Shown: positions 23,868 to 61,403 of the stretch, in pieces
Layout: each line of letters begins with the position of its first letter
Numbering within the stretch: the stretch's first letter is position 1
Source of the DNA: Callaeas wilsoni
Taxonomy: Eukaryota > Chordata > Aves > Passeriformes > Callaeidae
Reading direction: 5' to 3'
Assembly (NCBI GenBank): GCA_013398955.1
Contig: VWPU01013447.1
Coordinates: 46,713 to 110,712, forward strand
DNA length: 64,000 nt
Made by a program: the position numbers and the translations under genes
The notes under the pieces: model-generated
Told to the model about the DNA's origin: nothing
What the model saw: the letters and a program-made list of their open reading frames with translations, nothing else
Database searches by the model: none

Positions 23868-25383
23868 CTACAGCAGGAAAAGCTAAAGGTTATGTAGGTA
23901 TTAGAGGAGCTGTGTAACAGATATAGCACCCAGGACAGGGATTTACAGGTAATTAACCAACAGGGGCAAAATGGTCAAGAGATCATTTATAGCCATCCAG
24001 CCTTGCTCCACAGGATGACTGCTAACAGCTCTTTCTCAAAGGAACAGTGAGGGTAGTGATGTGGCACGTGGCCTAAGGAGAGATTCAGGCTCTGTAGGAA
24101 TGAACTACAACACAAGGAAAGTGAATATTTTACCTTCAGCACGACCATCAAGGCGTTGCAGTTATGTGCTGAAATACAACACCCCAAAGCAAAAGGAAAA
24201 AGCTCAGCAACATGTACACCCACCCAATGAACCCAGACACATCAGCAATGAGACCAGAACAGACAACAAACCTTTGGTGGCATTTACTGTGAAGGCTCTC
24301 CCTGTGTTTGCTGCTCTCTCTGGGGTTTCTGTATAGGTATTGCAACCATGTGGTATTTTGCTTTGCAAGACTGGACTGGTCAGGGTTGTCAAGCAACCCT
24401 GACAATGCAAGAATAGCCTCTTATCCATCTCAAAGGGACTGATAAAAGAGGTCTTACTCAGAAAGAACTGAATTTTGTTGGACTGCTACTTAAATATTTT
24501 CCTTAACCCCAGTTTTCCCAAGTAGAATTAGATATGGGATGTGAAGGCAAGGCTTGAAGGGGATGGGGTGGTGGTGGAAGACACAGACGCATAAGAATAT
24601 GCATGCTTGCAAGAAAAAAATATTCAGTAAGACATCAAGAGAGAGCCTTCCTCCCTGGCAATCAAGGGGAGGGCTGTGCAACCAGTAGACACATGAATCA
24701 CCACATTTTTATTTAGCTTTGTTTATCATATATACACCGTGTTGCCCAAGCTGCTGAATATACCAAAGGATCAGGAGTGTCCTTCCTGGTGGCTCTTGTC
24801 ATAGCCAGTGTCCCTCGTGCTAAGCTTCACACATGGGGCATGTGGAGTTTTCATACACAAGTCCTCATGGTGCTTATCCAGTTATTCCTCAGCACTGCTC
24901 CTTGGAAATCCACACTGCAAGGGCAACTATTACCCCAGCCACCGTGGTGGCCTTACCATGGGCATGGACCAAACTCCTGTAGGAGAGGCAGCTGAAAGCA
25001 GCCCTGGCTCTCAGTGATGTGTCTCAAACTTCTCTACTGCACCCTGTATCCTTCTGCCACTGTTTAGGGTCCCAGGTTTTCTCATTTAGCTTTATATCCA
25101 ATCCTAAACCAGCTCTACAGTGTTGGGTTAGGAATCAACCAGTCAAAACCAGACTAGCAGATCCAAGAGGGCCTTTCAGGGAACAGACACAGATTATTTC
25201 ACGTTAAATGAAGGTTTTCCAAGACAGTTCATCACACCCTCCTCACCTGTGCACGGCTGAGTCTCAGCCAAAGCAAAGAGGATTTGCAGCTGTGTGTTCT
25301 GAGCATGCGAGACTACACACCTTGAAAAACCTGCCTGAAAACCTCATGCACACAGGAGGCAGAGGAGCCCTGGGAATACTTAC

Positions 25384-26244
25384 TGTCTCTCTGATGAGCA
25401 GCGCAGTGAGGTCCTGCTCCTGCCCAGCAGCTCCCTGTTCTGGCACATCCCCCGAGCCCAGCTCGCGGGAGCCCTGTGCGGGGAAGGCGGGCCCCGGCTG
25501 CTCGTTGTCGCTCCCTGCCTGCTGGCCCGACTCCTCGGGGGGATGCGCCGGCTGCGGGGAGGCAGGGCCTGGAATCCCGTCCTGCTGCGGCTCCGGCCGG
25601 GGGAAGGCTGGCCCGGGAGCCTTCTCTCCATACGCCCTCAAAGATCCCGGGTCTGCCTCTGGCTGCCCTTGCTGAGGAGCACAACCATTTGCTACAGCCC
25701 GTGGCTCATCTTCCAGCGGTGGGAAGTGCCGGGGTTCCAGCTGGCTGTTCTCCTGGATCTCCTCCTGCTCCATGGCAGTTTTAGCAGCTGTTTCTTCAAG
25801 TTTCTGCTCTGGCTCCAAGTTCTCTCCTTGCTGTTCCCGAGCTTCCATCCTTTCCTCATGCTGAGGTGGAAGGTCTGCATTCCCAAGACTAATGGTTTCT
25901 GTGTTATCAGCAGGCTGTGGACTCATCTTTACCGGTGACAGCAAACTTGGGCCAGGCTCCTGGTTACCTGTAAGTTCAAAGCTGGAGCCATTCAGCTCAG
26001 ATGGTCCAGGCTGCTGCAGGGCAATGTCCACACTCTTATCCCTGCTTGGTCCAGCATTGCTCTCCACCATGAGGTTATTCCCATCTCCCTCACAGGGCAG
26101 AGCTGAATCCTGCTCAGCCTGCAGGTCTGTGCTCAAAGGCTCCACAGCACTTTTAGATCCTCCTTCTCCCACAGTGTTTGCACCCTGCCATGGAGCAGCA
26201 GGTCTGATGACATTGGGACGCAGAGGCTGCTGCTGCTTTGGGGC
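25384..26244 (-). CDS. RNF216: RNF216 large acidic/proline-rich exon
   Basis: An 861-nt open exon (287 codons, phase 0 both ends). It begins APKQQQPLRPNVIRPAAP and ends ALLIRET. It is rich in E, Q, P and S and largely disordered in composition. The block GPAFPRPEPQQDGIPGPASP followed by QPAHP is the recognisable RNF216 signature, and a second GPAFP copy follows 30 residues later. Other stretches differ from the mammalian proteins I know, as expected for a fast-evolving linker. Local GC is high near 25.4-25.7 kb. The acceptor is tttcag|GCC and the donor ACA|gtaagt. Confidence 0.94.
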
Positions 26245-27218
26245 CTGAAAAGGACACAGACAAGAGAAAGTAGGAATTCTTGTCTGCATGTCAGAATCCT
26301 TGCTCCAGATACTTTTGCATCTAAGAAAACTTCTGAGGAGAAACTGATAAACAGTCTGTCCAGCAAGATGCTTAATAAAGCACAGAACTGCAACCCACGT
26401 ATCTCTGTTTTACCAGCCTGTCCCCAGGTGCTACAAGAACCTTTGGGGATCCACAGGACTTTCAAAATGGAATCATTTTGAAATAAGCTCATCAGAGTAC
26501 CCACTTCCCTTCCAGTAAAATAATCTGGGAAGGAAGAACTAACTGATGACATATTTGTATTCTCACCAATTTATTTAAACAGGCAGGAACCAAAGCTCAA
26601 AACATTAATCTCTGGCCTTGTTCTTGCCTCTGGCAGACAGACTGCTGTATGCCAACAGACCCTGAGTGTTCTCTGCTGCTGTTTTCAACTAAGAAGCAGA
26701 AAGGTCAGCTTTGCAACCCATTTTCTCAGTGCTTCTGGTTAATTTAACAGAAAAGTGGAATAAATTCTTAATATAAGATAGATGTGAAATGCTGCAAAAA
26801 CGTAAGTGCCTGCAACAGCCCAACATGAATGCAAATAGCATAGAGGAATATAAAGCATATAAAGTACATATGTAAATCAAACAAGGCATGGTTTGAAAAC
26901 AGCTTCAATGGAAGATCAAGTCCTCTTGCAAAGCACTCCACCTTGCTGGATTCAGACAGACAACTTCATGGGAGCTACAACCTTCGTCAAGCAGAACTTA
27001 AACTACACAATGAAGTTCCACAGTCTAATTCTCTCCTCCTGTGCCCGAAATATGACCAAATTACACCAGCAAAATGCCATCACTTTGCCGTTATTTCAGA
27101 CATCCTAAGTAGATTGCTGTAACCAGGCAGGACTCAGAGGAATGCATCAGGTACCTGCAGAAGACTTGGCTATACAGGCCATGAATAAAGCACAGCAGCT
27201 ACAAGAATGAAAAACTAC

Positions 27219-33579: not shown

Positions 33580-34181
33580 TGTCCTGGGTTGCAGTGTATT
33601 CTATTACCATCTTCAGGAGCTGCTAAAACCAGGTGGGGCTGTGTCCCCTGCCTCCTCTCTCTGGACTATCTTCTGTTAATAGGCCAGCTGTCGGCACCGG
33701 GTCGGGCAGGGTTCCTTATCTCTCCCATGACCCATCCTCCCTCTGGGGGATATCTCCCAGTAATGGGCCATCCAGTCTCACCACATGGCTGATAAAATTA
33801 CAGCCTCCCATTGTGAGATGCTCTGCCCAGAGGGAGGAACCAAGCATCCCATCCTGGATATAAGCTAAGATTTCGAACACCAGAGCCAGCCCTTACCTAC
33901 TGGATTCCCAGAGGACAAGAGCTACCACTGGACCTTCAGGTGAAGACCAGATCTTTTCTACAGGATCACTGCTTCAACAGGACCATCTTCAGCAGAACTC
34001 TGGAGGAGTGCAGCCACTATTTTATTGGACTGCTACCAACACCCTGACTGACAGGGTGTCAGGTTGTATCCTGACTCTGTCAGTGGTTTCTTTTTGTACT
34101 ATTGCATTTATTTTAGTTTTTCCTATGAAATTGTACTTCTGACTTGGAGTTTCTCACTGGTTTTGCTTTCAAATCAGCACA
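33580..34181 (+). mobile_element. Solo LTR of an ERVL-like family
   Basis: A 602-bp LTR starting TGTCCTGGG and ending GCACA, flanked by a perfect 5-bp target-site duplication, ccctg (33575-33579 and 34182-34186). A TATA box (TATAAG, 33859) follows a GC-rich promoter part. The downstream leader ('cagaggacaagagctac' onwards) is clearly related to the LTRs at 47.6 and 50.2 kb, while the 3' part after 'ctgactctgtcagt' diverges strongly. No internal viral sequence remains, which fits LTR-LTR recombination. It lies antisense in RNF216 intron 1. Confidence 0.9.
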
Positions 34182-46841: not shown

Positions 46842-47572
46842 GCACATTCAAACGTACTGAAAGGATTAAATACACTCTATGAACAGGTTTGACTTCAAAG
46901 CCATTTGAAAAATCCAGGGTTGTGGGGACTCTGCCACTCAGCCTGGGACCGTAGGGATGCTGTCTGCCAACCGTTGCACATCCCAACAACCAGAACTGCA
47001 GAAACTGGTCTCCAAGTGCCAAAAGATCCCTACAGAACATGGGGCTGAACATGCCTCTCCTGTACAGTCCTGCAGGATGAGCATTTTTAGCCACCCGGTG
47101 CAAATCTCACAATATGGTACAATTTTACACCTCCGATGCGACTCCCAACAACAAATCACAAGAATTATGGTCAATGGCAAAAAGAAAACCACAAACAAAC
47201 AAAACAGAGAAAGATGCCAGGGTTTTGACAAGTGTCTACTTTCTGTCCTATCACAGTTTAAAGCTATTATCAAATTCAATTTAAAAAAAAAAAAAAGACA
47301 AAATGTAAGTATTCCAGTAGACATCTCCTAAGGACAGTCTCTTACCCACAGCTGAATTTCAATGCACTATTCCATAAATGTAACATCTGTTAAGTGTTTC
47401 AGTCATGAATCTCTCTAAAAATCAGGCTTGCCAAAAAAAAAAAATCCTATACAAGCAAGCCTGCTTAAGTTTAGACATGTTTGATAGATAACTGGGTCTC
47501 TCTGAAGCCGTGTTATTTGTTAAAATACTGTCTTGTCTTGGTGTGCAAACTGGAAAAATGTTAGTGATTCAG

Positions 47573-48029
47573 TGTCTTAGGTTACAATGTAAGATGTAAC
47601 CAAAAGTATGTGTTCTATCACCATCTGTTAAAACCGGGTGGGGCAGTGTTCTTTATCTCTTCCAGGACACATCCCTGATAACTCCCTCTGGAGGGCTATC
47701 TCCTGTTAATGGCCCATCTAGCCTCACTGCACGACTCATAAAATTACACCATCCCATTGTGAGATGCTCCGCCCAGGGGGAGGAACCGAGCATTCCTACC
47801 TGGATATAATCTGAGGTTTGGAACACCAAAGTCAGCCCTTACCTCCTGGATTCCCAGAGGACAAGAGCTACATAACCACACTGGACCTACAGAGGAAGAC
47901 CAGACCCTTCTACAGGATCACTGCTTCAACAGAACCACATCTGTCACTTCAAGAGGACTGCAGCCACCATTTAATCGGACTGCTACCACCACCCTGACCC
48001 ACAGGGTGTCAGGTCATCTCCTGACTCTG
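47573..48029 (+). repeat. Left LTR, 3' part missing
   Basis: It starts TGTCTTAGG immediately after the target-site copy and matches the right LTR for 457 bases without a gap, differing only at 47,732 (c versus t at 50,402, a CpG-type change). A GC box (near 47,768) and a TATA box (TATAAT, 47,815) predict transcription start near 47,845. It breaks off after 'cctgactctg', where the right LTR continues for another 198 bases, and runs directly into the ZMAT2 leader. Confidence 0.95.
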
Positions 48030-48042
48030 CCCTCAGGTCACC

Positions 48043-48642
48043 ATGGCGTCGGGCAGTGGCACCAAGAACCTGGACTTCCGCCGGAAGTGGGACAAGGATG
48101 AATATGAGAAACTCGCAGAGAAGCGGCTCACAGAGGAGAGAGAAAAGAGAGATGGCAAACCAGCTCAGCCTGTCAAAAGGGAACTGCTGCGGCACCGAGA
48201 CTACAAAGTGGACCTGGAATCCAAACTGGGGAAAACCACTGTCATCACCAAAACTACCCCTCAGTCAGAGATGGGAGGGTATTACTGTAACGTATGTGAC
48301 TGTGTGCTGAAAGATTCCATTAACTTCTTGGATCACATCAATGGCAAAAAACACCAGAGGAATCTGGGCATGTCCATGCGGGTGGAGCGCTCCACGCTGG
48401 ACCAGGTGAAGAAACGCTTTGAGGTGAACAAGAAGAAGATGGAGGAGAAGCAGAAGGACTATGACTTTGAGGAGAGGATGAAGGGACTCCGTGAGGAGGA
48501 GGAGAAGGCCAAAGCCTACAAGAAGGAGAAGCAGAGACAGAAGAAGAGACGAATGGAGGAAGATTTGACCTTTGCAGTAGATGAGGAAATGGCAGCTGTG
48601 ATGGGTTTCTCTGGTTTTGGCTCAACCAAAAAGAACCACTGA
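48043..48642 (+). CDS. ZMAT2: ZMAT2 retrocopy, intact 199-codon frame inside an ERV
   Basis: Encodes the full-length zinc finger matrin-type protein 2, the vertebrate Snu23 homologue of the U4/U6.U5 tri-snRNP and pre-B spliceosome. It has no introns. Residues 1-60 are the charged N-terminus. A matrin-type C2H2 finger uses C82, C85, H98 and H104. Residues about 115-172 form a highly charged predicted coiled coil, and the C-terminus is [14 protein letters not shown]. Length equals the usual 199 residues, with no stop or frameshift. The ATG context is strong (caccATGG). A few residues near the C-terminus (for example around 164-180) differ from the conserved protein as I know it. The parental gene normally has introns and lies elsewhere. 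Expression is not shown. Confidence 0.95.
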
Positions 48643-49300
48643 AGAGCTCCACTCTTCTTTCTCTTAACAGCTTGTTTTTATCCAGGGAACTCCAAATAAC
48701 TCTTAAAAGACTTGATTGAGAACTTGTATGTAAATCTCACAGTTGAAGTTGGCTGGAAGAGTTGAAAACCGATTCCATGCTCTACCTGTGCTGCAGATCA
48801 AGCTCTGCCTCTCATTAGCTTCCTTTCTCCTTCTGTGTCCTAGATCTGGCTGCTCAGCTGCTCTGTGGCTGTGTGCTCTGTAGGGTACATTTTTTTGTCA
48901 ATAAAGTGTAGCTATTCTGCATAGGTGGCCTGGCTAAGGATTAATCTAATTGTCAACCAGGCCCTACTTGTCACCCAGGCTGTGTTTGAGATGCAGGGAG
49001 GGATTCAGTTGCTTTTTAGGCTCATAATGGAAGGAAATGTGCTGCAGCAAGCAGTGTGAGAGATGCATCTTTATGGCTTGTGCTGAGCAGAGCTGGTGGC
49101 TGCATGGAGTCTAGGTTGCTGAAACTTTCCTTTTTGTTTTATCTGCAAGGGAGACTTCCTTCCTTTTCTTTGTGTTTTATCCTGTAATTTCAGTATCTTT
49201 AAGGTAGGGGAGAAATTTTTCCTCATGACTGGTCTAGGATAGAGCCAATGAAAGAAAGATGTGTATAATTTGCCTAAATAAATAAACAAAATGTTTTATT
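48643..49300 (+). other. Captured ZMAT2 3' UTR and downstream sequence
   Basis: After the stop codon there are about 650 bases of non-viral sequence. AATAAA at 48,900 followed by a GT/TG-rich stretch looks like the parental polyadenylation signal. Sequence continues some 400 bases past it to overlapping AATAAA signals at 49,277-49,286, then joins the integrase region near 49,300. No poly(A) tract separates the two. Assigning everything up to 49,300 to the ZMAT2 locus is inference. Confidence 0.6.
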
Positions 49301-49302
49301 GG

Positions 49303-50154
49303 GCCCATGATGCCTCTGGTCATCAGGGACGAGATGCAACGTACCGATGGGCTCGTGACTGAGGGGTGGACCTGACCATGGACAGCATCTCACAGGTCAT
49401 CCACAGCTGCGAGACCTGTGCTGCGATCAAGCAGACCAAGCAGGTGAAGCCTCTATGGTATGGTGAATGATGGTCAAAGTACAGGTATGGAGAAGTCTGG
49501 CAAATTGACTACATCACCCTTCCCCAAACCTGCCAAGGCAAGGCTTATGTGCTGACCATGGTGGAAGCCACCACTGGATGGTTGGAGACCTACGCTGTGC
49601 CTCATGCTACTGCCCGGAACACCACCTTGTGCCTGGAAAAGCAAGTCCTGTGGAGACATGGCACCCCTGAGAGAATCGAGTCAGACCAGGGGACTCATTT
49701 CAAGAATAACCTTATCAACACTTGGGCCAGAGAACACGGTATCAAATGGACATATCATATCCCCTATCGTGCACCAGCTGCTGGGAAAGTCGAATGGTGC
49801 AATGGACTACTTAAGACCACCCTGAAGGCACTTGGCAGGGGGACCTTCAAAAACTGGAAAGTAAATTTAGCAAAGGCCACCTGGATGGTCAATATCAGAA
49901 AGTCCATCAATTGAGCTGATCCTGCCCAGTTTGAACCCTTGCACACAGTGGACAGAGATGAAGTCCTTGTGGTACACATGAAAGGTATTTTAGGAACGAC
50001 TGTTTGGATTAGTACCACCTCAGGCAAAGGCAAAGCCTTCCCTGGGATTGTTTTTGCTCAAGGACCTGGTTACACTTGGTGGGTAATGCAGAAAGATGGG
50101 GAAACCTGTTGTGCACCACAAGGAGACCTAACCACAAGTGAGAACTGTGTGTAA
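49303..50154 (+). pseudogene. ERVL-like integrase remnant with three in-frame stops
   Basis: One continuous reading frame runs from the zinc-binding region (H codons 49306 and 49321, CxxC codons 49408 and 49417) through the catalytic core (D 49507, D 49684, E 49792; the last pair has the D-X35-E spacing) to a C-terminal part ending in TAA at 50152. It is broken by TGA codons at 49360, 49468 and 49912, with no frameshift. The rest of pol is missing upstream. It cannot make an integrase as it stands and is described only as a relic. Confidence 0.9.
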
Positions 50155-50242
50155 GGTTTCATTATCTATATATAAAGGTAGAGTTTAAAGAGGGTATTGA
50201 TTTGGGTATGAGGCAGATGGTATTAGAATAAGGGGTGGATAA
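50155..50242 (+). other. Spacer with purine-rich tract before the right LTR
   Basis: An 88-bp segment between the integrase stop and the right LTR. The last 20 bases before TGTCTTAGG are purine-rich (attagaataaggggtggata then a), the expected polypurine tract for plus-strand priming. No envelope gene lies here, as is usual for ERVL-type elements. Confidence 0.7.
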
Positions 50243-50897
50243 TGTCTTAGGTTACAATGTAAGATGTAACCAAAAGTATGTGTTCTATCACCATCTGTTA
50301 AAACCGGGTGGGGCAGTGTTCTTTATCTCTTCCAGGACACATCCCTGATAACTCCCTCTGGAGGGCTATCTCCTGTTAATGGCCCATCTAGCCTCACTGC
50401 ATGACTCATAAAATTACACCATCCCATTGTGAGATGCTCCGCCCAGGGGGAGGAACCGAGCATTCCTACCTGGATATAATCTGAGGTTTGGAACACCAAA
50501 GTCAGCCCTTACCTCCTGGATTCCCAGAGGACAAGAGCTACATAACCACACTGGACCTACAGAGGAAGACCAGACCCTTCTACAGGATCACTGCTTCAAC
50601 AGAACCACATCTGTCACTTCAAGAGGACTGCAGCCACCATTTAATCGGACTGCTACCACCACCCTGACCCACAGGGTGTCAGGTCATCTCCTGACTCTGT
50701 CAGTTTAAGCCAGTGTTTCTGTATTATTGCCTTGTTATATATCCTAGTAATGAACTGTTATTCCTATTTCTCATATCTTTGCCTGAAAGCCCCTTAATTT
50801 CAAAATTATAATAATTCGGAGGGAAGGGGGTCACATTTTCCGGTCCAAGGGAGGCTCCTGTCTTCCTTAGCAGATACCTGTCTTTCAAACCAAGACA
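50243..50897 (+). repeat. Right LTR, complete
   Basis: A 655-bp LTR from TGTCTTAGG to CCAAGACA, followed directly by the target-site copy ttcag. The first 457 bases equal the left LTR except one base. Its TATAAT box is at 50,485. The last 198 bases (from tcagtttaag on) are absent from the left copy. A possible splice donor, ct|gtcagt, sits exactly at the point where the left copy breaks off. Confidence 0.95.
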
Positions 50898-50902
50898 TTC
50901 AG

Positions 50903-52081: not shown

Positions 52082-52213
<132 letters not shown>

Positions 52214-52849
52214 TCAAGTGCTTATTGGGGGAAAAATGTAAAGAAGCCACATAGAGATAGAAATTGTAAAAACTCTCAGCTGCCTCAGTGGCCAAACATG
52301 ACAAGATGAAAAACAACTATTTATACAGCAGGAATGCACAGCTTAATAGGGCAGTGTTTGGGATGAGGAGGAGGAAGAGGCAGATGCAGGAGACTGGCAA
52401 ATAAAAAGCCACACAAGGCAGGCCCACTCCCTGCCCTGCCTGCAGACAGTCTGTGCTGCTGCTGACACCATTTCCTGCCTCTGATGGAGTGAGATTTCCG
52501 TGCAGGGGCTCAGGCTGTGCCTATACTGCACCAACAGCACCAGCTTCCAACATTCAACATCTGACAATGCTTCTTTGTAATAAAGAAATAAAGAAATAAA
52601 CTTACAAACATCTCACTACCCAGAATAATCACCTCTGGAATAAATGAAAACCACAGATAGTATAGAAAACAAATCAAGCTTTAAGAAAAGTAAATACTTT
52701 TGCTGGCTGCAGAGTACAGATATATCCAAGCTAATAGCACACTTGGAGTCATCCATGTTTATCACATGCCTAATCCCTGCCCAGGACAAACAGAAATGAC
52801 TCCTTTAAATCAAGACAAAGGGAGAGGAAGCAGAGTGTTTCCATCTTAC

Positions 52850-52934
52850 CAAGTGTGGGCTTTTGGAAGGTTGTCTGTGTTTGCATCTATTAAATGGATG
52901 GTAAACAGTCTGGGTCCTGCAGCGCCTGTAGAAC
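52850..52934 (-). CDS. SMURF1: SMURF1 coding exon, HECT C-lobe with tandem acceptors
   Basis: Encodes GSTGAAGPRLFTIHLIDANT and DNLPKAHTC up to the split catalytic cysteine codon. The acceptor giving the family sequence is tctaag|GT at 52936/52935. A second acceptor, ttctacag, lies 9 bases further in and would remove Ser-Thr-Gly in frame. The donor is CACTTG|gtaaga. Length is 85 nt. Confidence 0.94.
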
Positions 52935-53749
52935 CTTAGACAGACATTCTAGTTAATGCACTTCAACAAAGCATCATTCACACACACGCATTTTGCTGCT
53001 TATAAAAAGGCAAGAGAGGAAATTACAGTTCCAGCTGCAAGCCTAAGTATGTCCTAGGCTAAATCTGTAGAGATATTTGCAGCTGATGAAGGGATGGCAG
53101 AAGAGATAGGGCTGTTTGTGACAATCATTTTACAGCCTGGTATTTTGGAAAGCTGCTAAATTTGATATTAATGAAGCTGCACCATCAAAAATGAAAATAT
53201 TTAAGTGCAAGAAGGTTTTCTTTGTAAAACAGAACTAGTATTTTAATTTTGAACATCAATTTACTGTCAGCCAACAAATGGAATGTGATGAGGAGATCAC
53301 GACAGCCAAGGACACTGCCACCTTTTTGATAAAAACTTGCAATTTTCAAAAACTTGCTTTAAAGCCTAATGGTTTGGTGCCAAACACTGACGGGAATACA
53401 ATTCTCACACGAAAAAGTTCTTTAGTCAGCCATATATCCCTGTGCACGTTTGCATGGAATGATGTGAACATCAGAGCACAGAGCTGTAGGAGACTGACAA
53501 GCCAAAACTGACAGCAGTCAAAGCAGTGCACAGTAACAGATTTACCAGCTTCCATCACTATCAGCAACAGCCAAAGTGCTCAGCAGCAGCTGAGCTGCTG
53601 ACAAATGTAAAACCGCTCGCAGGCTCTGAAGTTCGCAAGTGCTTGGCTTATCCAGTAATATGCTGATATTTTACAAGGGGCCTGTAAATACCGCACCACT
53701 TTTATCTCTTTTTCCAACCACAGATCAACTCGGCCTCCACATCAGTCAC

Positions 53750-53951
53750 CTTGTAAAGCCTTGAAACCTTGAAGTGGGACACGCGTCGAGCCCGTCACGA
53801 ACTGCAGCAGCCTTGCCCTTCTTTCTTCATCAAACGTTTCCACTGCCTGCCAGAACCACTTGACGATGTTGCTGTCAGCCATGCAGTGCTTTAGGCGGGT
53901 GTTGGACTTCCAGTCATTCAGGTCTATCTTATCCAGGCCTCCTATGATCAG
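53750..53951 (-). CDS. SMURF1: SMURF1 coding exon, HECT domain
   Basis: Encodes LIIGGLDKIDLNDWKSNTRL, KHCMADSNIVKWFWQAVETF and DEERRARLLQFVTGSTRVPL to QGFKALQ. This is the N-lobe to C-lobe region of the HECT domain. The acceptor is ttaacag|CTG and the donor ACAAG|gtgact. Length is 202 nt, leaving phase 1. Confidence 0.96.
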
Positions 53952-55407
53952 CTGTTAAAAGATTAGGAAGTGCTTTAAAGCCCAGAGTCATTTCAGGTTT
54001 GCAGTTATAAAAACACATCCAACCACGTCATGAAGACTGGCATTGTTTAGGTGCTTCACCCATCTTTTTGGTGCAAGGTAACGTTCCAAACCAGTACAGA
54101 ACTGGCAGGAAATCTCTCCAGTTTGACTGCAGTGAAACTGACCCCTCGCAGTAGAACTTTCACAAGCAACTAAGAGTCAGAAGCCCATGCAAGACGTGTT
54201 TCCTCAAATCTGTGCTCCCTGGAAGGTACAGCCTGTCTTTATGAGGGTACAGCACTGATTTGGAATAAGGCTGTGGCTCAGCATCATTATCCTGCTGCAG
54301 GATTGTCCTAGAGGTGCCAATACCAGCTACAATGGAATCCTGCCCGGCTTATGGGAACATCTGAGTTGCTTTGTTGTTCCACAACAAACTACAGAAACTT
54401 TTCCTCTGTTTTTTGACCCCATTTGTGAGAGGCTCTGACATAACACTTCAATCTCTCTTCCAGATGACACCAGGTTGCAAAATACTGGAAAAAGGAAGTT
54501 GCTGCTGGCCATGCATTTAACCACCTCCCCTGGCAACAACAAATAAAGAGCACAGAGCAAACTTCACCCCTCAAAACAAAACGTGTGTCATATTCTAAAA
54601 TTCCCATAATATTCCACAGTAAGGATCCAATTGCTGGGAGCTGCCCTTTAGCAGCTGCCTTGTTGTACCACCAAGACAGCACCCACTTACACCTGCTCAC
54701 ATCATTAGAGGAGTTGTGACTGTTCTGACATGGACAGTATTGAAATATTTAATGGATTTTCAATTTGCCTTTTTAAGCAAATAGAATGCAAGAACTTTGT
54801 GGGATTAATCAAAATGCATGGCTGACTAGCACAAAGCTAGTGCTTCCAATACCACAAATGCTGAATATTCCACAGGCTGCCTTATCTTTTCTAGGAAGCA
54901 AAACCAGAGGAAAAATTGCTGTAACTGGAATTATTTTAAGAGATAGCTTTCTGCACCTCAGGATTTAATAAGAAGACAAATTAATTTCTTTTCTATATGC
55001 TCAACTCTCATCTTTCTGTAAACCAATCCCTGTGTGCAAACAGAAAGAGTCATGCATGAAACGTTGCTGGACAAAACAGGTTCTGGGGTAAATAACCTGT
55101 CTGGTCTTGCCAGCAATTCCTCAAACTTGCAGTGTTTCCTCCTTCTCAGACCACCTGCCTTGAGCATTAGTTCTTGGATAGACACCATGGTGTATTTGTC
55201 TTTCCCTGTTTAAGTAGCCCTCTCAATAATATCAACCCAAAGAATGTCTAAAATAAACCTAAAAGGGTTTAGTTAAACAAATATTCAGCTTTCTGGTATG
55301 TAGAATGGAATAAGTTTTGTGTTTTGTTCTTTGTTTGTTTTTTAAATCAGTGTTTGACTGTGGATTCAACAAATTACAAAACAATACTCCATGTGGATAA
55401 AACATAC

Positions 55408-55528
55408 CTCAAGTTCCTTCTGGTCAAAAGGCTTAAGGAGATGTTGAGGAATAAGTTCATTAAAACCTTTCTGCAGAGCCAGGAACTGTGCCTCTATTCC
55501 TCTCATGAACCGCCAGTTCACATACAAC
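55408..55528 (-). CDS. SMURF1: SMURF1 coding exon, HECT domain
   Basis: Encodes (R)LYVNWRFMRGIEAQFLALQ and KGFNELIPQHLLKPFDQKEL ending at E. The YVNWR..RGIEAQF..L..GF.E string is the canonical HECT N-lobe signature. The acceptor is cccacag|G and the donor GAG|gtatgt. Length is 121 nt. Confidence 0.96.
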
Positions 55529-55884
55529 CTGTGGGAGAAGAAGGAAAAAGTCAGGGGTGATGAGCTGGACATCACTGGGATTTTTCTAGCAGACTTGGAA
55601 AATGCTCGTTTTACAGAGGATCTTGTTTTAATACACACATTTTGTATTATGAAACAAGTGCTTATCCATTCCTTTTTCCATCAATAATTAATTACACCAT
55701 CAACAGAAAAACCGAAGTACCATTCAAAACTTCATCTTCCCAGGTCCAGTGAAAATATTCATGTCATTTATGACTCAGGCATTTCCTCCCAAAATATTTA
55801 CTTCATTAGTTTCACTATATACAAAAATTCTGTTTACTACCCTCTTCCCACTACATTTGCAGGACGTATTTCTGTTTGCAATAC

Positions 55885-56022
55885 CTGACATATTCCTTCT
55901 TGTTCTCTTCTGTCACTGGAATATTCCTGCCATTTGGTTTGAGTTCATGCTGTAAAATCCTCCCAAAAGCATTGTGTTCCACACAGAACGTATGGTCCAG
56001 GACTGGTGTGATATCGTTCTCT
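55885..56022 (-). CDS. SMURF1: SMURF1 coding exon, HECT domain
   Basis: Encodes ENDITPVLDHTFCVEHNAFG, RILQHELKPNGRNIPVTEEN and KKEYV. The acceptor is ttggcag|A and the donor GTCAG|gtattg. Length is 138 nt; phases join with both neighbours. Confidence 0.96.
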
Positions 56023-56282
56023 CTGCCAATGGACAGAGGGTAAACTCAGTATTTTTGGTAGTTTGGTAACTCTCAGTGAGGATGCTGACAGTTATCTGAA
56101 CACCCAGGTAGTCTTCAGGCTAAACTTTAGTTACCACCTGCATTTCACACACTAGAGGAATACTGCCACCATCACCAATTTCTGTGTGGTTTGGCGCATG
56201 TTCAAGAGCCTGATTAGAAATGGGATATTCATCTAATTCTAGTAGAACTCAGGATACTGGATAAAACCCTAGATACAGAAAT

Positions 56283-56345
56283 ACACACACACATAACATA
56301 TATATATATATATATTTATAGATATTTATATTTATATATACACCC
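56283..56345. repeat. AT-rich simple repeat, (TA)n-like
   Basis: An imperfect run of ta/tata units with interspersed ttt in a SMURF1 intron, preceded by a short ca run. It is likely length-polymorphic. Confidence 0.85.
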
Positions 56346-56881
56346 AGCAAGAATCTGATCTGCTGTCACATATCTGTAAAGCACAGAAAAGACCATGCGT
56401 AGAGAACTTCATCATCGCTAACTTTAAATATAAATTCAAAACAGCATTTAGGAAAAGAAGTTGAGATAATGAAAAGCAGTTCCAAAGAGTCCCAAAACTA
56501 CACTGAACGCTGGGTTTTGTGCTGTAAGCATACACAAGCCCAAATTACTTCCATTTATTTTCATTTCAATCAGAATTGGCTTTCTTTTGAAGAAGGCTGT
56601 ACTTCCCCTCAGAGCTCTGTCCTGAGTTTGAGTTTTGATACTGTGATATTCTATCATACCCATGCAACCTCTAATGGTTTAGTACCTGCTTTACTGCAAG
56701 GAGAGTTTCAATGAGAACTTTTCCTCAAGTACCTCTGATATATTAAGAACAGTTTAATAACTTTGCACAGACTTGCACCATAAAAAGTTTTTTGCAAACT
56801 CTTTCTCTAAACATCTCACTTTGCCAACAAACTCTACTCCATCTTCTCTACAGCGAGACAATTGCTAAATTCAGTACTTAC

Positions 56882-57060
56882 AAGATCCAGACTAAACTTT
56901 TGTGTAATTCTGGGTCAACAGATTCCAGATCGGAGAGCTGGATGGGCTTCCCCAGCAGCTGTTTGTAAAAGGGAACTGTGAACCCCCCGTTGATATAGTG
57001 TCCATGGAACACAGCCAAACCCATTATCCGACCAACAAAATGGAAATAAGACAAATGGTC
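56882..57060 (-). CDS. SMURF1: SMURF1 coding exon, HECT N-lobe
   Basis: Encodes [40 protein letters not shown] and [20 protein letters not shown]. The [15 protein letters not shown] string is the conserved HECT N-lobe core near the E2-binding region. The acceptor is ctgcag|GAC and the donor ATCTT|gtaagt. Length is 179 nt. Confidence 0.96.
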
Positions 57061-57988
57061 CTGCAGGGAGAGAGGAGAATCAGGCTTGGGAAGACACTGA
57101 CATCTTGTGGCACCCTCGGTGGCTCATTCAGTGTGAGTTACCTGCAGTCCTCTGGGTGAGAGCAGCCACCACTTTTCCTTACAACATAACCAAAACCAAA
57201 CCATCTAATGATTAAAAACCTCAAACAAGTCTCTGAGCACTACCTGATTAATAAATTGGATTCAAGTCCTCTAGACCTCTCAAAGGGCAAAACTTGGAAA
57301 AAGAATTTCCCTATGAAACCTCCAGAATCCAAGAAAATGAGGATTCCAAACAAATTAGTTTGTACTTTGTTTAACCATCCAAATGTATCTGCTCTTGAGG
57401 AAGCAGTGTGCTTGCTTCCTTCATTTCTTTCATGCTCCTTTTAAATTAACTTTTGAAAACTGAGGTGTAAGTCCTGTGGTTGACATTCTTCCGATCCATC
57501 TCCCTCATCTTCCAGTGCAAATGTCAGGAAATGTCATGACAGGAAGAATTCCCTCTACTAATACAGAACTGCCTCCCCTTTTAGGGTCTGCATCAATACA
57601 AATCCTCCAGTAAGGGAAAAAGCAAGCACAGGAGCACAGTGAGAAAGGGCAAGCAAGGGATACATCCCTAAAAGTCATGGGGTGGCACTGCTGGGAATGT
57701 AATGCTGTGTGCACAACCACCTGTGCTCACACTGAAGATGAAATTCATCTGTCTTGTCTTCTCAGAATCACTGTGCAAACCAATCAGTACCGAGGAGTCT
57801 CAAAGAAATCAGATTTTTATCAAAGGATATTATGCTTTTAATTTCGGAACAAAACCCCTCTGCTTCTTACTATATCAGTATAAGACATTAACACCTTATT
57901 CTGATTTACCCTGCAGTTAGGCTCTTCTTGTGGAAGAATAGCTGTAAGAAACTGCAGAGGACATCTGTTAATGTAGGAATACTGCTCA

Positions 57989-58168
<180 letters not shown>

Positions 58169-59575
58169 TTAGACAACACAATTATTGTGATTGATCAGTT
58201 ATGAAATGCTTATTTCAAAATCAGATCATCTTGTGCTGCCCTCCATTTGTAGACCAAAAAGGTGTGATTAAAACCCCACAGTGTCCTACTCCACTCAGGG
58301 CAGACTCGGTTTAGTTTAGAAGCGCTGAAGGGATTAACATCAATTAGAGAAGCTACAGGAAGCTGTTAGACAATGCCATCAACTAATTGAGTCTGAACAA
58401 GCCCCGCTTCCAAAAAAATCCTGCCTTTGTACAGAGTTCAGCTATTTGGAGCCTACAAAATCTGCTCGTCTGCAACCTGTACAGTATGAGGAAATATTTT
58501 AAAAACCCTGTTGATCAGAATCAGCTCAGTCACTGAGGATCTTTAGTAAAGCTGTTTTTCTGCCAGCTTGGTGACTGCTTTCAGCAGAGGCCAGAAGGAA
58601 CAGAGACCAAGTGCACGAAAAGGAGGGGTTGGGTAAATTCTCTCACCTCGGTAACACCCAAGGACAGGAGCAGAACTAAAGCTATTTCTGACCTCCCAAG
58701 TCACCATGACAAATACCCCTTTGTTGTTAAATTTGGACACCCTTCCCAGGTCCTAAATATTCCGAGAGAACTATCAATTGTAATGCTTGGAAGTGGAGCT
58801 GTACCGATCTGAAAGAGCCAGTTGCAACTAATGGGCAATTATGAAAGGCATCGGGGCAACAGGCTGTCAACAGTGGAGACACACAAGGTTGCCTCGGGTA
58901 AGGCAGCTTAGAATGTTCCAGCTTTTTTCCTGTGTGCAGGGATTGATCACTGAAAGACACCTAAGTGGGCAGCTTTTGTGGATTTGAGAAATTTCTCCGT
59001 GAATTTACACAACTCTGAGCCACCACAAAGGTGAGGGTTTTTTCAGTGATGCTACAGTCAGCTCCTGAATTTCAGATCTGGTGCAACCCACAGGGAATTA
59101 TTGTCATTTTTAACAGGGAGGCGAGTCCTCACTAAAATTTTAGCCTTTGTTTAGGATTAGTACATCTCCACTCCTGCTCCAACAGATCAGAGAACTCTCC
59201 TGAATGCGGCTGAGACGTAACAAAAAGGAACCCCTACTCTCCTGCAATCCATTTGTGGGAAATCAGAGAGGTGTGTTTAACAAAACCGTTCCTGTGATCT
59301 GGATCTGACTTCAGGGTCTATGTGCTCCCTGAGAGACCTCACAATTTGAGCTGATCACACTCTCATAACTTGCAGTGGTACAACTGTTACATCACAGGCT
59401 TCCACTTTCCAACCTACCATGGAAAGAGTGAAGCTACAGCCACTGCCTATGAACTAGACCATAAATAATTAACATATATCATTAACAGATAACTTGAAAG
59501 GGAGTGGTATCAACCATGGGGCACTTAAAGGGCAACTTTACAGTTAAGAGGTGTTAGAAAACCCCCAAAATCTCA

Positions 59576-59746
<171 letters not shown>

Positions 59747-59848
59747 CTAATGCTGTAAGATTTTTGCATTTCTGTAACACAAAGACTAATCAGTTTTACT
59801 TTTCAGTGACAAAAACTGCTGTAAGTAGTAAAAAAATCAAACCAATAC

Positions 59849-60053
59849 CTCAAATATTTCCTCTCTGGATACTTCAATGCGACAGTGACCAGCCTGAGGC
59901 TGCTGGAGAGAGAGCTCATGTCTAAGAACTTTCAACTTTTGTACCAAGTCTCTTTCATATCTCTGTGCAGGCAACTCCTCACCCTCTTCCAGTGATCCCT
60001 CATTTGGAGCTGGCAGAGGCTGCTGGCTGGGCTCTTTTAGCTGGCATTGATGG
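59849..60053 (-). CDS. SMURF1: SMURF1 coding exon, WW-HECT linker
   Basis: Encodes HQCQLKEPSQQPLPAPNEGS, LEEGEELPAQRYERDLVQKL, KVLRHELSLQQPQAGHCRIE and VSREEIFE. The HQCQLKEPSQ start distinguishes SMURF1 from SMURF2. The helical RYERDLVQKLKVLRHEL segment leads into the HECT domain. The acceptor is tccaag|C and the donor GAG|gtattg. Length is 205 nt. Confidence 0.96.
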
Positions 60054-61256
60054 CTTGGAGAAAAAAAAGGACAATATTTATTCTGGACACATAACAATAA
60101 GGAATATGTAAAACAATGATGGAAGAAATGATTAAGCTTCTCTAAGAGAAACACGGAGTGAAATGTGTATTCATCTGGGTACTTCTGTACCATCATCACA
60201 CTAAATTCAGAGATGCAAGGAACACAGATGTTTAAAGAGTTCCAGCATTTTTGAACTGTTTTCATAAGGTAAAGCACTGTGGAAGGCTCTGGAGCACGAT
60301 CACTGATTGCTAAGTGAGCAGTAATTAAAGTTTGTGTGGTATTCTCCCACATGGAGACAACTTTCAAGAGTGCAACACGAAAAGAGATCTCTAATGGAAC
60401 AAACAACTGCTTTATAAAGGGAACTGTCCAACAACTGCAACTGATTTTATTGCAGCTCCATGCAAAACAAAGCTGGGGATTCCTGACACAGTAAAAACAC
60501 TGCATCTATGGTTGTTAAGAGAGAAAGATATGCTTGTCCCAAATAATTGCAGCTTCATACACTCAACTATCCTTATCCATTAGTGCTTTGTTTGGGTTGT
60601 GGAGCAATTATTTCTTAGATACAGAGATTCCCCAGCTGGCTTCAAGCACAAGAAAAACTCTGGTCTTGGGCACAAGCAGCACTGCCAGGCTGCTTCCAGG
60701 GTCAGTTCCACAACAGTTCAGCTGCCTTTGCATGATGCAGAGCTTGAGCTTGCTAAATCCTGCTAAACCCAAACTGGCTGTGCACAGCACCCGTTGACCA
60801 GACTCCAGCTGCCTTTATATTCCCATTGTCTGGAGCTCAAGGGAGCATGAAGTTAGTCCAGATCCAGAACTGCCAGCACAGAGCTAGAGCTGCTCATCCA
60901 GACAGACAAGAGCTGACTGCTGGGGAACCCCTGGCAGGGCCTCTACCCCATACCTCAACAATTCCAGAACTGTGTAATTTGCCCCAGCACAGCTTGGGGC
61001 AATTTTGTCAATCCATCTTAAAGGGATTAGTGTTGTGCTGAAATAAGAAGCCCTCCCTTAAACCCGAGGACTGCAGAGCAGAGTAAAAACCCTTCTGAAG
61101 AGTCTAGCAAAAAACTTAGATAAAACCAGCACTGGGAACCAATGCTTGGACCTTGATTACAGCACTGGCTGCATCTGTTCCCCAGGATCATTCAGGGTTT
61201 CAACCCCTCATGACTCCCAGACCTGACAGGAATTATTTATGAGGCAAAGCTCTTAC

Positions 61257-61403
61257 TTCATGATGTGATGTAGTCGTGGATCTGTGAATTGTGTGGTTCT
61301 GTTGTTATGATCTACAAAATATATTCTTCCTGAAACTGTACTTCTGACTTCCCAGCCTGGAGGCAAAGGTCCCAGTTCATCACAATTCACACTGTTAAGG
61401 TCT
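61257..61403 (-). CDS. SMURF1: SMURF1 coding exon, second WW domain
   Basis: Encodes [20 protein letters not shown] and [20 protein letters not shown], then DPRLHHIM. This is the WW domain that binds PY motifs in SMAD proteins and SMAD7. As in the family, the second signature tryptophan is replaced by Phe (TTQFTDP). The acceptor is cttttag-type tttag|A and the donor ATGAA|gtaaga. Length is 147 nt. Confidence 0.97.

Follow-up and report, generated by a model that had tools for sequence, protein, structure and literature searches.

In acute transforming retroviruses the complementary DNA (cDNA) of a cellular oncogene replaces viral genes between the long terminal repeats (LTRs), and a helper is needed. 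Template switching between LTR elements and messenger RNA (mRNA), the source of LTR-mediated retrocopies, has been reviewed with credit to Tan and coworkers and with chicken among the species (PMC5408686). Crocodilian endogenous retroviruses (ERVs) carry captured KIT-ligand (KITLG) and nectin3 mRNAs (Chong et al. 2014, PMC4299795). Retrocopies are few in chicken, where one survey counted 78, and this scarcity is attributed to its CR1 long interspersed nuclear elements (LINEs) (PMC3136929). Here we describe an element in a 64,000-nucleotide stretch of the Callaeas wilsoni genome (the window). It is very probably a defective ERVL-type element in which a spliced cDNA of the host gene ZMAT2 is joined to the integrase region at a 7-base microhomology, most likely by reverse transcriptase switching between ERV RNA and ZMAT2 mRNA inside an ERVL particle. 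The source assembly comprises 1.0 Gb in 12,470 contigs, and the element was read from it alone. RAG2 in this assembly points to a passerine, likely a songbird: at the protein level it shares 94% identity with a Melospiza cluster and 92% with a Pipra cluster, both Passeriformes, against 89% with the next named cluster, Numenius. Cytochrome b gave a single short match with 2 stops, probably a nuclear copy.

Structure of the ZMAT2 element

A single LTR element occupies positions 47573-50897 of the window on the + strand, flanked on both sides by a perfect ttcag duplication. LTR ends and ttcag thus surround the whole, which points to an integrase-type insertion. Its parts are as follows.

47568..47572, no strand: left target-site duplication ttcag, read from the sequence
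47573..48029, + strand: left LTR of family A, truncated, comprising U3 and probably part of R, without U5 and without a primer-binding site
48025..48029, + strand: possible 5-nt microhomology CTCTG between the LTR and the ZMAT2 5' untranslated region (5'UTR), suggested by the 5'UTR frame of another passerine
48030..48042, + strand: remainder of the captured ZMAT2 5'UTR, from comparison with the Pyrgilauda ZMAT2 prediction
48043..48642, + strand: ZMAT2 coding sequence, intron-free, 199 open codons, with a zinc finger (open reading frame, protein and domain matches)
48643..49306, + strand: captured ZMAT2 3'UTR with AATAAA at 48900 and 49277, matching the native gene as far as GGGCCC
49300..49306, + strand: TGGGCCC, 7-nt microhomology between the native ZMAT2 3'UTR and the parent integrase, by sequence comparison
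49302..50242, + strand: integrase remnant and purine-rich tract of an ERVL-type (foamy-like) pol, with in-frame stops at 49360, 49468 and 49912
50243..50733, + strand: family A part of the right LTR, by LTR comparison
50727..50733, + strand: TTGCCTT, common to LTR families A and B at their border, by LTR comparison
50734..50897, + strand: end part of the right LTR, from a second family (B), terminating in CA, by LTR comparison
50898..50902, no strand: right target-site duplication ttcag, read from the sequence

An earlier sequence-only reading had proposed most of this layout, and much of it stands: the 5-bp duplication is perfect at 47568-47572 and 50898-50902, the intronless 199-codon frame (48043-48642) is fully open, followed by its 3'UTR, and matches human ZMAT2 (E=1.5e-119) with a zf-met domain, an integrase core domain (PF00665) lies in 49549-49911, and a purine-rich tract directly precedes the right LTR, as a similar tract does in several ERV relatives. 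Both LTRs needed revision. The left one is a direct repeat of the right, but it stops at 48029 after 457 nt and therefore lacks U5 and the primer-binding site; the right one belongs to family A up to 50733, but its last 164 nt (50734-50897) derive from a different LTR family. The two junctions had been placed near 48,029 and 49,300; the first coincides with the left LTR end at 48029, and the ZMAT2/integrase border is now refined to 49300-49306.

Native ZMAT2 exons 2-6 lie on a different contig (C11678:18827-24392). All four testable native introns (470, 1051, 1983 and 1480 nt) are of the GT-AG type and absent from the copy to the base. Exon 1 was found neither in the assembly nor in the part of C11678 examined, whose end is GC-rich; a pattern search for it (21 bases, at most 2 mismatches) returned, besides the copy, one unrelated place. 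When the assembly was searched with the ZMAT2 coding sequence, the seven matches were the copy, five native exons and one weak 71% stretch, and the 3'UTR matched the copy and the native gene. Neither search found a second ZMAT2 chimera.

The captured block could instead be a LINE-type retrocopy that landed in an existing ERV, or an assembly chimera, and a genome in 12,470 contigs, judged from the assembly alone, leaves some room for either. The sequence-only reading had named duplications and a poly(A) tail of the block's own as signs of a later LINE-mediated insertion, and these are absent: the longest A run at the block end is 4, and no repeat of at least 4 bases directly abuts its borders. 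If a distance of up to 8 bases is allowed, the longest repeat pair is CTCTG (48025-48029 / 49314-49318), where about one such pair is expected by chance (289 border pairs tried). The flanking ERV parts come from distant regions, the R of the LTR and the middle of the integrase, so the element is not explained simply by a cDNA that landed in a provirus. LTR ends and ttcag frame the whole, and junction microhomology recurs in a second element (below). On all these counts we rejected the LINE retrocopy and regard this pair of explanations as highly improbable.

The integrase piece indicates the lineage. Of its six best PDB matches, four carry the name PFV (foamy virus) integrase, with E between 6.3e-8 and 3e-7; the top one (3dlr, 2.4e-8) is named only Integrase, and lentiviral integrases score 1.8e-5 or weaker. 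Such a foamy-like integrase fits the ERVL class, and the 5-bp ttcag duplication is that of ERVL (class III) elements. These lack env and use a tRNA-Leu primer. We compared 19 integrase relatives with their flanks, taken from 40 scored of 173 candidates. Two of the in-frame stops recur there (7/19 at 49360, 2/19 at 49912), so part of the integrase damage may predate the capture. Two other proviruses of the family have LTR pairs with 6/439 and 16/480 mismatches; rather young insertions therefore exist in it.

Upstream of the integrase, 15 of the 19 relatives (L033 counted) share the sequence of L033, which we take as pol, one carries SLU7, and three (L037; L042, also L081; L045, also L082) gave no match. 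L045 is partly pol-like near the border, with 28 of its last 60 bases alike, against 48 and 44 in two pol-bearing relatives and 11-15 in others. In L042/L081, AATAAAATAAAA lies a short way ahead of the border and may mark a captured 3'UTR. Two further places checked for captures yielded nothing identifiable.

Junctions and a second capture, of SLU7

At the 3' border native ZMAT2 reads AATGGGCCC followed by TTTGG. The parent ERVs, L033 and L034 among them, have TTGGGCCCAT at this place, and TTGGGCCCATG stands at the border in L033 and similar relatives. In the window, ZMAT2 sequence leads through TTGGGCCC to ATGATGCC, the seven bases TGGGCCC being shared. An exact 7-nt overlap arises by chance with a probability of ~0.0003. 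Compared in this way, the TGGGCCC microhomology is the mark expected of template switching by reverse transcriptase.

At the 5' border the frame before the ATG reads LCPQVT-M in the window, including the last LTR bases, and LCPQLA-M in a Pyrgilauda prediction. Because the two resemble each other, the copy would begin inside the ZMAT2 5'UTR, and CTCTG may be shared between that 5'UTR and the LTR.

SLU7 cDNA occurs in another ERV/host chimera, which belongs to the same family (L080; G000:C2215:44500-51500). It consists, in order, of an LTR, a leader at the position of the primer site, the SLU7 5'UTR with 392 open codons, integrase (from position 348), a purine tract and an LTR. Its two LTRs, aligned over 489 columns, differ by 7 mismatches and one gap, and its flanks AGGGC and AGGCC are alike at 4/5 positions. 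The frame is SLU7 by its match to human SLU7 (E=5.6e-230) and the Pfam domain Slu7. The copy ends at residue 397 of the 586 in human SLU7, about two thirds of the gene. Native SLU7 lies on contig C9615, where it matches the copy in 11 pieces; the acceptor of its exon 2, read by eye, indicates that splicing of the copied mRNA had extended to the 5'UTR. SLU7 and integrase overlap by 7 nt (TGTGGAG) at their border.

Between the two elements the integrase sequences share 86% identity, and the ZMAT2 and SLU7 captures are therefore taken as independent. As the SLU7 capture also shows a 7-nt microhomology, mRNA capture by this ERVL lineage is recurrent. Both cDNAs were likely picked up from mRNA during reverse transcription.

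The right LTR of the window element adds a further junction. Family A copies match it up to position 442-521, mostly 476 or 491, and from TTGCCTT onwards its sequence agrees at 88-92% with that of another LTR family (815 candidates, of which 40 were scored). The two families share these 7 bases at the hybrid border. We considered an established hybrid subfamily and rejected it: among 40 scored places of 1545 candidates for the hybrid end, only the window matched all 161 bases. C6373, which matched bases 5-124, is an ordinary family A LTR, and the match in C2823 ended 7 bases beyond the border.

These junctions can be ordered into one round of reverse transcription. Minus-strand DNA would start on RNA of LTR family B, transfer to family A RNA in R at TTGCCTT, and then copy U3, the purine tract and integrase. 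It would jump at TGGGCCC onto ZMAT2 mRNA, ~20 nt past the AATAAA of that mRNA, copy it into its 5'UTR, and jump at CTCTG back into R of an ERV RNA, on the upstream side of the primer-binding site. R would then serve for the second strand transfer, and the integrase of an intact helper would insert the product.

Several points weigh against this account. The 5' junction depends on the predicted protein of one other bird, exon 1 being absent from the assembly. LTR position 457 joins the ZMAT2 5'UTR directly; with the primer-binding site missing, the last steps would not be canonical, and a later deletion would explain the structure as well. The left and right LTRs differ by 1 mismatch in 457 nt, against 55 differences in 659 nt of 3'UTR, and a single recent capture of native ZMAT2 does not fit these values. 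That the LTRs are nearly identical could also be an effect of assembly, where error is possible. We read the lack of the primer site as a product of the last template switch or of later deletion, and keep the origin as a retrocopy apart from a full match to that type.

Conflicting ages of LTRs and captured sequences

LTR-pair divergence per branch is 0.0011 in the ZMAT2 element and 0.0072 in the SLU7 element. Both captured cDNAs stand at a synonymous divergence (dS) of ~0.1 from their native genes, and the LTR pairs (1/457; 7/489) are much more alike. The ZMAT2 copy differs from native at 19/582 coding positions without indels and at 55/659 3'UTR positions with 5 indels, giving dS 0.094, a non-synonymous to synonymous ratio (dN/dS) of 0.21 and 8 amino-acid substitutions. 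For SLU7, dS is 0.102 and dN/dS 0.24 (45 changes, one 6-base in-frame gap); the first 133 codons alone give 0.11. APOBEC-like hypermutation of the ZMAT2 copy was rejected (C>T 23 vs G>A 20 in coding sequence and 3'UTR).

The capture may be old, the LTRs having been made alike by gene conversion or assembly and the ZMAT2 frame kept by purifying selection as an LTR-driven retrogene. We entertain this only tentatively. A neutral copy of a conserved parent is expected to show dN/dS 0.5, and the ZMAT2 value lies below it. In neutral simulations with 3'UTR rates, at most 8 amino-acid changes arose with P=0.0034 when the divergence was split equally between the branches. CpG loss in ZMAT2 is one-sided, 10 in the copy and 0 in native, and affects 6/7 CpGs in the 3'UTR vs 4/17 in the coding sequence; decay took 3/7 synonymous routes vs 1/27 others (P=0.02). 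Non-CpG transitions in the 3'UTR are one-sided too (25 vs 7, P=0.002), and the absence of coding indels contrasts with 5 in the 3'UTR. However, the simulated P rises to 0.19 if 30% of the divergence fell on the copy, and a binomial test of a neutral copy with equal branches is marginal for ZMAT2 alone (P=0.058). The truncated SLU7 copy has an equally low ratio, and its 392 codons are free of stops, even though a truncated protein is an unlikely target of selection. The window LTRs also carry fewer C>T and G>A changes than those of 18 relatives (means 8.9 vs 16). Bird species-specific retrocopies cluster below dN/dS 0.5 in a vertebrate-wide preprint (PMC13320880).

Alternatively, both insertions may be recent and their donors functional ZMAT2 and SLU7 genes already diverged from native, for example an unassembled paralogue on the germline-restricted chromosome (GRC). 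Such a donor, which we hold to be doubtful, would account for two cDNAs at ~0.1 dS with low dN/dS, for which neutrality is rejected jointly (P=0.0024; SLU7 P=0.014), next to LTR branches of just 0.0011 and 0.0072, and the SLU7 CpG changes are symmetric (6:6). A GRC is likely present in all songbirds and consists largely of paralogues of A-chromosome sequence (PMC10172847, PMC10387091). Against such a donor, no such ZMAT2 or SLU7 paralogue was found in the assembly, both genes are absent from the main text of these two papers, ZMAT2 CpG loss runs one way (10:0), and the copy branches come to 0.019 and 0.024 when estimated from non-synonymous changes, which exceeds the values for the LTRs. Between an old copy under selection, its LTRs homogenised, and a functional donor that had already diverged we cannot choose: the truncated SLU7 would favour the donor, and the one-sided CpG loss of ZMAT2 the old copy.

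It would also separate the ages if the chimera had long replicated as a passenger of helper ERVs before this insertion, as acute transforming retroviruses do. The cDNA divergence far above that of the LTRs and the stem of 0.044 that parts the window LTR pair from its relatives both suit such a history. It is nevertheless unlikely, given a single copy in the assembly by coding sequence and 3'UTR, the missing primer-binding site and a hybrid LTR end matched in full by the window alone among the scored places.

Other sources for the copy were examined. A donor from a distant bird was set aside, although not decisively: Thr66 is present in copy and native, against Ile in 9/12 other aligned sequences (Thr in 2, 1 unalignable). 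Readthrough from an LTR promoter at native ZMAT2 was likewise rejected: the pieces of the native contig, on which exon 1 and its upstream region do not lie, bear no LTR of family A. Among viral contigs no relative of the ZMAT2 frame was confirmed, and among phages there was none.

Diverged ZMAT2-like proteins occur in six songbirds (Corvus P0021, Oenanthe P0027, Sylvia P0047, Zosterops P0052, Turdus P0057 and Lamprotornis P0064). All of them but the Corvus protein have I84 (5/5), and four of these five have N180. From these proteins, passerines seem to have gained ZMAT2 copies on more than one occasion. Like the window copy they are extra, diverged proteins of the ZMAT2 type in passerines, but compared as proteins alone they do not share its diagnostic residues save L89. 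Orthology was rejected on this count, with 1/8 substitutions shared among the six (L89, in Lamprotornis), and the window copy and the songbird proteins look independent.

Comparison with described systems and significance

The window element resembles LTR-mediated retrocopies, in the features given for these in PMC5408686, in holding a spliced host mRNA inside an LTR element, switching at short similarities and an LTR-given promoter, with chicken reported among the hosts. The copy is intron-free at 4/4 testable introns, LTR termini and a single short duplication surround ERV and cDNA together, and junction microhomology measures 7 nt at the ZMAT2 3' junction and 7 nt in SLU7, that at the 5' junction being inferred. 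It differs in lacking U5 and the primer-binding site at the left, in its two-family hybrid right LTR, and in that one ERVL family took up the mRNAs of two splicing factors. The crocodilian ERVs are likewise endogenous archosaur elements with an intact captured frame, for which purifying selection is reported, but they form multi-copy lineages with a cytokine or adhesion protein (PMC4299795), whereas here one copy of each capture was found, the products are nuclear splicing factors and most of pol is replaced. Acute transforming retroviruses share the host cDNA that replaces viral genes between LTRs and the need for a helper; here there is no oncogene, and the integrase is foamy-like and of ERVL type.

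The sequence-only reading had called the element a retrovirus-like one that transduced a host gene. Three points hold on comparison with the native gene and the parent ERVs of the same genome, namely the chimera, its membership of an ERVL-type lineage and the origin of the insert in a captured, spliced ZMAT2 mRNA, but LTR-mediated retrocopy fits better than transducing retrovirus, which would be a replicating chimera in several copies, when one ZMAT2 chimera was found in the assembly. It had also taken the capture as undescribed. We found no capture of ZMAT2 by a retrovirus in the open-licence literature, searched by title and start of abstract, which is weak evidence of novelty, and nothing there on ZMAT2 with the GRC or as a retrogene; among the matches listed for SLU7 with the GRC, a retrocopy or an ERV, SLU7 figured only in a review of that protein. 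The ZMAT2 and SLU7 captures were thus not found described, while LTR-mediated retrocopies as a kind are already known from PMC5408686 and PMC4299795.

The left LTR has a TATA-like GATATAA at 47803, no ATG occurs within 47830-48042, the ZMAT2 start context ACCATGG is kept and the captured 3'UTR holds two AATAAA. An LTR-driven ZMAT2-like mRNA is therefore predicted: the transcript would start near 47830 and its first ATG would be that of ZMAT2, giving a ZMAT2-like protein with 8 substitutions.

Nearby, SMURF1 peptides match 52085-61372 of the window on the - strand; the element lies ~1.2 kb past the last of these matches on the opposite strand (antisense), perhaps in the SMURF1 3'UTR. Elsewhere the window holds a further family A LTR piece (33696-34084, 81% identical) and, on the - strand at 25264-26289, a 341-codon open frame rich in proline and glutamate.

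A far-reaching extension, which we consider very unlikely, is that songbird germ-line ERVL particles repeatedly turn mRNAs of divergent GRC spliceosome gene copies into LTR-driven genes on ordinary chromosomes. If true, ERVs would be a return route from the eliminated chromosome to the ordinary ones. The clash between LTR age and cDNA age turns the origin of the captured mRNAs into a testable question. With two splicing-factor mRNAs in one ERVL family and junctions readable per base, the elements exemplify a route of gene copying that avoids LINEs and supplies a promoter at once. Such capture would be one way for birds, which are thought to copy genes rarely, to gain gene copies, and if the ZMAT2 copy is expressed, it would provide an LTR-driven variant of a core spliceosome protein.

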